The notes below the pieces were generated by a model. The model saw only the letters and a program-made list of their open reading frames with translations, did no database searches and was not told where the DNA came from. A stretch of 37,999 nt of DNA from a candidate division Kazan bacterium RIFCSPLOWO2_01_FULL_48_13. GTDB taxonomy: Bacteria > Patescibacteriota > Kazan-3B-28 > UBA10110. Location: contig METE01000002.1 in the NCBI GenBank assembly GCA_001771275.1, forward strand, positions 41,983 to 79,981. The letters run 5' to 3'. Shown in pieces: positions 3,464 to 31,464 of this stretch (its first letter is position 1; the number at the start of each line of letters is the position of its first letter). A program made the position numbers and the translations under genes.

Positions 3464-5722
3464 ATGGCGGTTTCCAAAACCTTCAGTCCAGATTTAAAGC
3501 AGATCCCGAATAGCCCCGGGGTGTATTTGATGTATGGGGGGATTGCTCTGCGTCATCCTGAATCCGCCAACCGGCGGATGAAGGATATAGGTCGTAAGGC
3601 CGCTTCGCTAGCCTGCCTGCGGACGCGGGACGCGGCCAGGGATTCTTCGGCTGGTCGCCTCAGAATGACAGCAAAAGAGGGTAAAGTGATTTATGTGGGG
3701 AAGGCGATCAACTTGCGGAAGCGGGTGTCTTCGTATTGGAAACAGCCAGTTAAGCAAAGTATCAAAACGCAAGCGCTGATCAAGCAGGTGGCGAAATTGG
3801 ATTTTATGGCTACCGATACCGAAGCCGAAGCGCTGATATTAGAGAACGAATTAATTAAGAAATATCAGCCGCAATATAATGTACTGCTCAGGGACGATAA
3901 AACCTTTCAATATATTCGCATTGGGTTAGATCAAAAATTTCCGGAAGTTTCGGCGGTTCGCCGAGTTAACCCCCAGGAGATTAAGAGTCGGGACCCCAAC
4001 CGGCCGAGATATTTTGGGCCCTACACGGCCGGGAGCACGGTGAAGAACACCCTCAAGTTATTAAATAGTATTTTCCCGATCTGCGGTAAAGCGCGAGAAT
4101 TAAATTTACAGAATAAGATTCCTGCCGGAGTTTACCCTCGACTGCGATCGGGGGCAGGAATGACAAGAGGGGGAGCAGGTCCGCCAGCCGGCGGAGACGA
4201 GAAGGGAGCAGGAATGACAAGAACTGGTTTGTCATCCCGGACCGGATGGACTATGGCCGATCAGGATCCGGGATCTTTTGTTGCGCCATTAAAGGCGCCG
4301 TGTCTTAACTACCATCTGGGGAGATGTTTGGGGGTCTGCGTTGGCAAAGCGACCGGTGCGGACTATCGAGCGGCGATTGATAGAGTAGTTAAATTCTTGG
4401 GCGGTGACACCAAAAACATTATTAAATATCTGCAGGCGCGGATGTCGCGATTATCGAGTGAGCGAAGATTTGAAGAAGCGGCCCGACTTAGGGATCGGAT
4501 AAATTCGTTAGAACAGTTATTTGAACAACAAAAAGTTTCTCGGCCAAAAGATTTGGAACAAGATTTCTTAGGCTGGTTAGTAGAAGGCGAGAAGATGATC
4601 GTCTCGCGCGCTCAAGTTCGGGGTGGCAGGTTGCTCGGCCAGCAGACTTTTGTGTTAAACGCGCCGCTTAGGGATGCCGAGGCCAATTTAATGTCGCAAG
4701 CGATCATTACCATTTACGATAAAGTATTCGAAGATCTGCCCAGAGAAATTATTGTGCCGGTATTACCAGAAGATTCGGGAGCGATCGAAAAGTGGTTAAG
4801 CGATAGGCGAATCAATCCCACCCCACCTCTCTCCGAGTCCAGAGACTCTCAGAGTCGGCGACCCCTTGGTAAGGGGAGGAGCAAAAATAATCCCCTCCTT
4901 TCCAAGGAGGGGGCAGGGGTGGTTGGGAGGAGAGGAGGAGTTCGTGTTATAGTGCCACAAAAGGGGCCGAATCAAAAGTTGCTATCACTGGCCCAGCGTA
5001 ATGCTGCTCAACATTCCGGGTCGCTCTTGGATGTGGACGAACGATTAGGGGTTAAAAAAGCATTAGTAGAGCTCAAAAATCTGCTCAAGCTAAAAAAGCT
5101 GGAGCGGTTAGAAGCCTACGACATCTCGCATTTTGGGGGGACCCACACCGTTGGTTCGATGGTGGTATTGGTGGGTGGCAAGCCCGACAAAAATCACTAT
5201 CGCCGGTTTCGCGTTAAAACGGTACCTGGCATTGATGATTATGCCGCTTTGGGCGAAGTGATCACTCGAAGATTAAGCCCCAAACGCCGAACCGATAAGA
5301 GATTCGCGGTCGGTTTGCCGGATGCAATTTTAATTGATGGCGGAAAAGGCCAGTTAAGTGCGGTGTTAAAAAATGTAACAGCGGATGATAAAAAGAAAAT
5401 TCGGTTTTTTAGTTTGGCCAAACGGGAAGAAGAGATATTTTTGCCCGATAAGTCACAGCCGGTAATTTTGCCCAAGAATTCGGTGGCGTTGCAGCTGTTG
5501 CAACGGCTGCGGGATGAAGCGCATCGATTTGCGATCAGCTACCAAACGGTATTAAAAGCAAAGCAGTTGATAGGAAGCACGGAGAGATTGGCGGGCATTG
5601 GCGCCGCTACCCGCAAAAAATTGGTAAAGCAGTTTGGCAGTTTATCAGCCGCCCGCCGGGCGAGTGATAGTGAACTGGCTCAAGCTTTGAGTGAAAAACA
5701 AATTCGCTCATTCCGATTGTGA
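3464..5722 (+). CDS. uvrC: Excinuclease ABC subunit C carrying three apparent in-frame repeat insertions
   Basis: GIY-YIG core (PGVYLMY...KVIYVGKAINLRKRVSSYW), KAPCLNYHLGRCLGVC, UVR motif, RNase H-like domain (LERLEAYDISHFGGTHTVGSMVV, AILIDGGKGQL), C-terminal HhH. Start at 3464 (MAVSKTFSPDLKQIPNSPG) fits better than the ORF start at 3380. Confidence 0.93.
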   Translation: MAVSKTFSPDLKQIPNSPGVYLMYGGIALRHPESANRRMKDIGRKAASLACLRTRDAARDSSAGRLRMTAKEGKVIYVGKAINLRKRVSSYWKQPVKQSIKTQALIKQVAKLDFMATDTEAEALILENELIKKYQPQYNVLLRDDKTFQYIRIGLDQKFPEVSAVRRVNPQEIKSRDPNRPRYFGPYTAGSTVKNTLKLLNSIFPICGKARELNLQNKIPAGVYPRLRSGAGMTRGGAGPPAGGDEKGAGMTRTGLSSRTGWTMADQDPGSFVAPLKAPCLNYHLGRCLGVCVGKATGADYRAAIDRVVKFLGGDTKNIIKYLQARMSRLSSERRFEEAARLRDRINSLEQLFEQQKVSRPKDLEQDFLGWLVEGEKMIVSRAQVRGGRLLGQQTFVLNAPLRDAEANLMSQAIITIYDKVFEDLPREIIVPVLPEDSGAIEKWLSDRRINPTPPLSESRDSQSRRPLGKGRSKNNPLLSKEGAGVVGRRGGVRVIVPQKGPNQKLLSLAQRNAAQHSGSLLDVDERLGVKKALVELKNLLKLKKLERLEAYDISHFGGTHTVGSMVVLVGGKPDKNHYRRFRVKTVPGIDDYAALGEVITRRLSPKRRTDKRFAVGLPDAILIDGGKGQLSAVLKNVTADDKKKIRFFSLAKREEEIFLPDKSQPVILPKNSVALQLLQRLRDEAHRFAISYQTVLKAKQLIGSTERLAGIGAATRKKLVKQFGSLSAARRASDSELAQALSEKQIRSFRL
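3551..3671. repeat. Palindromic element copy inside uvrC (copy 1)
   Basis: Starts CGTCATCCTGA and ends TCAGAATGACA (inverted ends); contains TCCGCCaaCCGGCGGA; no stop in the uvrC frame. Confidence 0.75.
4118..4276. repeat. Composite palindromic repeat inside uvrC (copy 2)
   Basis: ATTCCTGCC...GGCAGGAAT, CCGCCAGCCGGCGG, GCAGGAATGACA twice, ATCCCGG...CCGGGAT; frame stays open. Confidence 0.7.
4815..4930. repeat. Palindromic repeat inside uvrC (copy 3, different type)
   Basis: CCCCTTGGTAAGGGG and CCCCTCCTTtccAAGGAGGGG hairpins, outer CCACCCC...GGGGTGG; encodes NPLLSKEGAGVV-like repeat peptide. Confidence 0.65.
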
Positions 5723-11407: not shown

Positions 11408-13414
<2,007 letters not shown>

Positions 13415-24724: not shown

Positions 24725-24780
24725 GTCATCCCGAACTCGTTTCGGGATCTTAGATTCTGAAATAAATTCAGAATGACAAT
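24725..24780. repeat. Intergenic copy of the TGTCAT...ATGACA palindromic element
   Basis: TGTCATCCCGAActcgtTTCGGGATCTTAGATTCTGAAataaaTTCAGAATGACA: two hairpins inside inverted ends. Confidence 0.8.
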
Positions 24781-28273: not shown

Positions 28274-29179
28274 CTACCAGAAAAAGTTGGACTGCAGGGC
28301 GGGATTGGCAGAACCAGCATAGAACTGGTTTGATGGAGCGGCGGGAATGATCGCCCGATCCCAATCGATATCGATTAATGGCACCGGGTTGATGGCGATC
28401 CGGGTCCGATCGTTAATGTAATCCACTTGAAAGTGCAGGTGGGGATTGGTAGTCCCACTATTACCTAAATGACCGATTAAATCCCCCACCTTAATTTGTT
28501 GACCAATCTTAACCGAAATATTTTGTAAGTGCCCATAAGTAATTTGGTAGTCCCCCATCTTAACGATTACGGTGTTACCAATTTTGTGGCCGGCAAAGAT
28601 CACTTGGCCAGCACTGGCGGAAACGACATCAATTCCCTCACGACCAGCAAAATCAATACCGTTGTGCCGATCTCCCCACTTGGGGTATTTGATATTGTAG
28701 TTTTCTTTAATGGCAGAGAGGGGTCCGAACCAACCGTAAACAAACCAAGTATCGGTTGAGTCAGTTGAAATAAATTGACCATTTTGAATCGCAAAGTATT
28801 TTTCTCCCTGGTTAGTGTCCCACCAAATCCCCGGGTTGTTTTCATCCCCACTCCCTCTCCGAGCAAGAGTGCCCTCTGGGCCGGCTGCCGAGCTGGGTTC
28901 CACCCCGGAGGGGCTTCTGCCCCGGAGGGAGGCCCACCTCGACCCCACATTAAACGGCACCCTCAACTCTACATTCGATGTTTTTGATGTTAACGGCAGT
29001 TCCGGTTTAGTATATACGGTAGCTACCGTATATACAGCCGGATTGATGGTTGTTGTTGAGGCCGAGCCGCTGGATTGGGCGGAGACAAAGCCATCCGTTG
29101 ATGGGGTATGTAAAGAGCTCGGCAGAAGAACGATGCCAATAACCATCAGGCCCACTATGACTAACCTGGTTCTATACAT
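28274..29179 (-). CDS. M23-family (LytM-like) peptidase with an apparent in-frame insertion
   Basis: N-terminal signal/TM; GDRHNGIDFAGREGIDVVSASAGQVIFAGHKIGNTVIVKMGDYQITYGHLQNISVKIGQQIKVGDLIGHLGNSGTTNPHLHFQVDY. Confidence 0.92.
   Translation of the reverse strand: MYRTRLVIVGLMVIGIVLLPSSLHTPSTDGFVSAQSSGSASTTTINPAVYTVATVYTKPELPLTSKTSNVELRVPFNVGSRWASLRGRSPSGVEPSSAAGPEGTLARRGSGDENNPGIWWDTNQGEKYFAIQNGQFISTDSTDTWFVYGWFGPLSAIKENYNIKYPKWGDRHNGIDFAGREGIDVVSASAGQVIFAGHKIGNTVIVKMGDYQITYGHLQNISVKIGQQIKVGDLIGHLGNSGTTNPHLHFQVDYINDRTRIAINPVPLIDIDWDRAIIPAAPSNQFYAGSANPALQSNFFW
28840..28945. repeat. GC-rich palindromic segment inside the M23 peptidase gene
   Basis: Contains CCCCGGAGGGGCTTCTGCCCCGGAGGG and CCCTCTCCGAGCAAGAGTGCCCTC; encodes low-complexity SRWASLRGRSPSGVEPSSAAGPEGTLARRGSG. 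Confidence 0.55.
29010..29035. repeat. 26-bp perfect palindrome inside the M23 peptidase gene
   Basis: GTATATACGGTAGCTACCGTATATAC. Confidence 0.9.
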
Positions 29180-31356: not shown

Positions 31357-31464
31357 TGTCATTCTGAGCGATAGCGAAGGATCTAGCGAACCGGTCCTAA
31401 GGCCTGGATCCTGAATAAGTTATTTATAATAGGCCTACGGCAGTAAAGTGTTTTCAGGATGACA
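31357..31464. repeat. Intergenic palindromic element copy with well-matched inverted ends
   Basis: Starts TGTCATTCTGA and ends TCAGGATGACA (10/11 inverted match); internal GGCCT...AGGCC. Confidence 0.82.

Follow-up and report, generated by a model that had tools for sequence, protein, structure and literature searches.

The uvrC locus and its inserts

The window, a stretch of 37,999 nucleotides, belongs to a genome of the candidate division Kazan (G000; a 791-kb assembly in 20 contigs, 97.5% complete) and carries uvrC, with ligA 6 kb downstream of it, as well as uvrA. For comparison the same-genus sister species G001 (contig set JAFGPN01, labelled Patescibacteria group bacterium), the relatives G002 and G003 from the same family, and G008, which belongs to a different family of the order, with its congener G007, were used. 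The features are listed in Table 1. The start of uvrC was set at 3464, where it aligns with the start in G001; the open frame itself runs from 3380.

Table 1. Features of the window, with the evidence for each placement
Feature	Position	Strand	Evidence or remark
uvrC CDS	3464..5722	+	NCBIfam TIGR00194 (E 3.7e-141); Pfam domains; alignment with G001
Insert 1 of uvrC, 46 extra codons in the GIY-YIG hairpin	3542..3679	+	Alignment with the empty site in G003 and G002; junction sequences; pLDDT <50
Insert 1, first CGTC unit	3551..3586	+	CGTC tag 3551-3554, interrupted-stem hairpin 3555-3586; DNA fold
Insert 1, second unit, inverted	3642..3670	-	Hairpin 3642-3666; minus-strand TGTC tag 3667-3670; DNA fold
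Insert 2 of uvrC, about 62 extra codons between ARELN and KAPCLNYH	4106..4291	+	Alignment; repeat matches 4108-4173 and 4228-4275
Insert 3 of uvrC, repeat-derived, between DRR and VIVPQKG, ends approximate	4808..4942	+	Alignment; repeat matches 4827-4927; AlphaFold low-confidence stretch
Perfect single CGTC unit in ligA, CGTC-ATTCCCGC-GAAG-GCGGGAAT-CTT	11724..11750	-	Hairpin scan; ligA identity
Intergenic CGTC pair, TGTC-ATCCCGAA...TTCAGAAT-GACA	24725..24777		85% match to the ileS pair
Intergenic paired element	31357..31464		Tags as in insert 1, interior of another, commoner subfamily

An earlier note had described a palindromic element at 3551-3671, placed in frame within the GIY-YIG hairpin of UvrC. 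This insertion is real, and its sequence, peptide and coordinates were confirmed up to 3670. The 46-residue peptide IALRHPES...LRMTAKE is flanked by PGVYLMYGG and GKVIYVGKA, which form the two hairpin strands, and the invariant GIY-YIG residues of the protein are intact. At the DNA level the element begins with CGTCATCCTGA at 3551 and finishes with TCAGAATGACA at 3670, and its predicted fold consists of two hairpins with outward tags (CGTC...GACA), the first being CGTC-(ATCCT..ATCCGCC/GGCGGAT..AGGAT) and the second, inverted, TGTC-(ATTCT..GGC/GCC..AGAAT). A mismatch of 2 nt divides each stem (into 5+7 bp and 5+3 bp), the tails are ATA and CCC, and no target-site duplication could be defined.

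The note had reported a single insert. Alignment with the relatives showed that uvrC of G000 holds three in-frame inserts, and a further one lies in ligA of the same window. All three uvrC inserts match repeats dispersed in the genome, and insert 2 is composed of several of them.

Distribution of the uvrC inserts among relatives

In the alignments, uvrC of G002 and G003 has no insert at sites 1 and 2; at site 3 there is none in G002, and G003 is masked. The uvrC of G001 has inserts at all three sites, with content unlike that of G000 at sites 1 and 2. Its site 1 holds a different repeat (AGATTGCCACGCTCCGCTCGCAATGAC plus another piece). The observation that the note had named as a refutation, a homologous, non-repetitive peptide at this place in all close relatives, was thus not made. 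In G000 the sequence GGATTGCTCTGC is retained directly before the CGTC tag of site 1 and may be a remnant of a first insertion shared by both species.

The hairpin motif has a constant 19 residues in 64 of the 68 other UvrC loci, with exceptions in G001 and G008, and among the matches listed from a draw of 380 Patescibacteria genomes a displaced hairpin was seen only in G000, G001 and G008. The UvrC of G008 carries a repeat-like insert, GERLPRSARNDEKG, in the same hairpin, which was linked to the repeats because of a 27-nt match to the G001 insert; no second copy was found within a 220-kb sample of G008. Another insert of this protein, in the RNase H domain and containing VIPRKAGIQ, matches dispersed DNA of G008 and had no match in a sample of G007. 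Since displaced hairpins occur in just these three genomes among the matches listed, invasion of the UvrC hairpin is restricted and had at least two origins or was transferred. UvrC is usually about 600 aa long; open frames of about 760-957 aa were observed in G365, G179, G105, G289 and other members of family f62.

The dispersed repeat family

Repeats were analysed from the search matches and the stretches around them. In G000 there are 105 occurrences of the end pattern GTCATYSYGA, far beyond chance as judged from the 7 of a reversed control. The pattern is also frequent in G001 (82 versus 14 for the control), less frequent in G003 (36 versus 11) and not clearly higher than the control in G002 (9 versus 7). 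Perfect hairpins were found at 52 of 480 distinct GTCAT sites, compared with a mean of 1.0 and a maximum of 3 after shuffling; the fraction is not a genome-wide rate, because the stretches had been selected around tag matches.

Among the 69 hairpin units of G000 and G001, 66 bear a TGTC or CGTC tag and 64 have a stem of 8-9 bp with a loop of 3-5 nt, the combination 8/5 being the commonest (40 units). The tail is CCA in 30 of the 69 and CTA, CTT or CTG in most others. Since GTCAT and a closing AT were search requirements, these features are to some extent a product of the scan; the lengths of stem and loop, the first base of the tag and the tail were free. Pairs of units were found between genes as well as in uvrC, ileS and leuS. 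Tagged units are densely clustered at G000:C1:63190-65012 and G000:C10:49723-49820, where GTCATCCTGAAAACACTTTACTGCCGTAGGC is the commonest subfamily and some copies have GGGCCAAAGGCCCC in mid-element.

The other genomic copies of insert 1 that the note had expected were found in part: there are 17 further partial matches in G000, including a near copy of the first unit in stretch L189, but the genome search gave no exact full-length second copy. The likeness to the intergenic element at 31357-31464 holds for the ends only, and that element was rejected as a copy of insert 1. Over 120 bp, a dispersed copy has a mean of 0.56 open frames out of 6, so that the copies surviving in frame look like a filtered minority.

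In-frame copies in other genes

The unit in ligA reads in frame as a 10-residue peptide. It was not found in LigA of G001, G003 or G007; LigA of G008 has a CGTC pair in the same loop. A pair in ileS (TGHSELGSESNKKIPKRVRDDKK) is common to G000 and G001 and was not found in G002 or G003, and a pair in leuS of G000 (ACHPEPDSGSDGEMPKQVRHD) was not found in any of G001, G002 and G003. The ligA and ileS units fall within the stem and loop range given above. When the window genes were compared with G001, repeat-type inserts were seen only in uvrC and ligA, and uvrA had none. A true unit was also found inside a methyltransferase gene of stretch L145. Other candidates were discarded: the in-frame tags in gyrase A, PyrF and a MurF-like gene looked, by inspection, like chance 10-mers in native sequence, and that of a tyrosyl-tRNA synthetase lies in an N-terminal extension which may not be translated.

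Several further differences between these genomes were noted. Directly upstream of uvrC in G001 (L034:235-930), a reverse-transcriptase gene (RVT_1) overlaps the uvrC start and contains an in-frame REP pair, TCHAEFSSASKVLKQVQDDR; the open frame at its position in the window has no Pfam match. Besides its REP pair, LeuRS of G000 (L178) carries some 120 additional residues (SRSFVMGVNESDLKK...LLIHPNTG), within or close to the editing domain, that G001, G002 and G003 lack, and IleRS of G000 (L172) has an additional stretch (LPYSPGGQFIPVRYF...GPGSKYN) not in its relatives. IleRS of G001 has other small inserts, TAGQRDSGSA and GIPGKPGRSA. At 28850-28927, a minus-strand gene (28274-29179) has an in-frame insert of 26 residues (LRGRSPSGVEPSSAAGPEGTLARRGS) relative to G001, with no second copy in the fetched stretches.

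Predicted structure of UvrC

An AlphaFold model built with 27 aligned sequences had a mean pLDDT of 74.5 and a pTM of only 0.44. Its three long stretches with pLDDT <50 (residues 28-71, 223-269 and 456-490, numbered from 3464) are the inserts, and the hairpin strands flanking insert 1 (19-25 and 75-81) were modelled. The model fits disordered loops at the inserts and does not prove them, as low AlphaFold confidence can also stem from a scarcity of homologues.

Origin and retention of the inserts

Insert 1 is very probably an inverted pair of CGTC REPs in frame in the turn of the UvrC hairpin, carried as a tolerated disordered loop, and the in-frame inserts in repair and synthetase genes of G000 are most likely tolerated insertions as well. 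We infer that the repeats move, that the inserts are translated and that the nuclease remains active. A non-autonomous palindromic repeat would move, probably as a DNA hairpin, and a CGTC pair would have entered the hairpin turn in frame, to be transcribed and translated with uvrC. The extra peptide would form a disordered loop with which the nuclease can still work, and two more repeat insertions would have settled in two other segments of the protein. Insertions disrupting frame or fold would be lost to selection, and in-frame, stop-free copies in permissive loops would survive.

Alternatively, the inserts may be kept for a function, either as a DNA or RNA hairpin acting in pausing or message stability or as a peptide under selection, which we regard as unlikely. 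The ileS insert shared by G000 and G001 is conserved at 10 of 10 fourfold sites, compared with 103 of 280 (37%), and the shared uvrC insert 3 at 18 of 20, compared with 93 of 191 (49%). The two ileS copies are 95% alike, while the nearest other copy reaches 85%, and both the UvrC hairpin and the LigA loop are reused in G008. However, this conservation concerns two cases only and exceeds the best other windows of the respective genes by a small margin; inserts 1 and 2 of uvrC show no conservation between G000 and G001, and the ligA and leuS inserts are not in G001. A further step, that in this order REP copies in repair and tRNA-synthetase genes re-enter the same loops in separate lineages and that some are held constant by selection on the hairpin or peptide as functional intragenic modules, is somewhat less probable still. 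Proteins have few permissive loops, so the hits of G000 and G008 in the same loops are not proof of target preference, and such sharing by chance is not very unlikely. Less expected are the reuse of loops and the high conservation of the two shared inserts. Because some inserts are common to G000 and G001 and others are not, a direct test of neutral passengers versus selected inserts is possible.

That insert 1 is removed from the message like an intron, or from the protein, and UvrC made without it, might be suggested by its position within a conserved domain and by its palindromic DNA. This is very improbable, since in several species the uvrC, ligA, ileS and leuS inserts that were examined all have a length divisible by three and no stop, a property not required of an excised element, and Pfam and NCBIfam scans of UvrC showed no intron or intein domain.

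The presence of three inserts within a single gene could also indicate that uvrC is a decaying pseudogene collecting repeats. Between G000 and G001, dN/dS of the UvrC core was 0.088/2.1 = 0.04 (NG86, with a dS close to saturation) and 0.091/1.10 = 0.08 (YN00), and both uvrC genes are therefore under strong purifying selection. With the frame of full length in both species, all UvrC domains recognised and the invariant GIY-YIG residues kept, decay is just as improbable as excision. Natural loop expansion or an assembly artefact, for which low-complexity expansions in other loops of neighbouring genes might speak, was rejected as the least credible explanation, given that the insert DNA matches dispersed repeats, that the same sites are occupied in two genomes binned separately, and that the hairpin is empty in relatives, with a near-constant 19-residue motif and few displaced cases.

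As tolerated REP insertions, these cases would be examples, in a distant lineage, of the bias towards DNA-repair and tRNA-synthetase genes that has been reported. For annotation, peptides such as a 16-residue example or KIPKRVRDD in conserved proteins denote repeat DNA and not protein domains.

Comparison with known palindromic repeats

CGTC REPs have an unpaired CGTC, TGTC or CCTC tag, a stem of 8-9 bp beginning with AT, a loop of 4-5 nt and a CCA-like tail; they occur mostly as inverted pairs, have no transposase, and include RPE-4 and RPE-6 of Rickettsia (PMC3733652). The G000 repeats fit this definition in their CGTC or TGTC tag, AT-starting stem of 8-9 bp, loop of 4-5 nt, C-rich tail and inverted pairing, and repair and tRNA-synthetase genes likewise contain them in frame, sometimes with two in a single gene. 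Such copies were already reported, many of them in repair genes (uvrA, uvrB, DNA ligase, recBCD), others in tRNA synthetases and in one gene twice (Di Nocera et al. 2013, PMC3733652). As the discussion of that paper names UvrABCD, a uvrC with a REP may already have been recorded. Insert 1, with its interrupted stems and long spacer, differs from typical CGTC REPs and is a variant of the dominant family of the genome, and, unlike in the published cases, there are three insertions in uvrC, in part of other types of repeat.

The comparison with Rickettsia palindromic elements (RPEs, also reviewed in PMC10969869) made in the note was apt, as palindromic repeats lie in frame in conserved genes in both and are apparently tolerated. 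The likeness, in the sense of "works like an RPE", derives from the shared CGTC definition (PMC3733652) and not from a comparison with RPE sequences. The host of RPEs is an intracellular alphaproteobacterium, and the host here is a Patescibacterium. RPE-1, the best known of the RPEs, is longer and belongs to another type of palindrome.

GTAG REPs and REPINs are similar in being small palindromic units, often in inverted pairs and some of them intragenic. They are mobilised by RAYT transposases, and a Y1 transposase would be expected with them. The G000 units differ in their CGTC or TGTC tag, and no match to PF01797 (Y1 transposase) was found in the 97.5% complete assembly. No earlier report of REPs or MITEs in CPR/Patescibacteria was found in the open-licence literature. 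Because in-frame copies in repair and tRNA-synthetase genes are already described (PMC3733652), the G000 repeats are a known rather than a new kind of element, here extended to the Patescibacteria, as far as could be found a new phylum for it.
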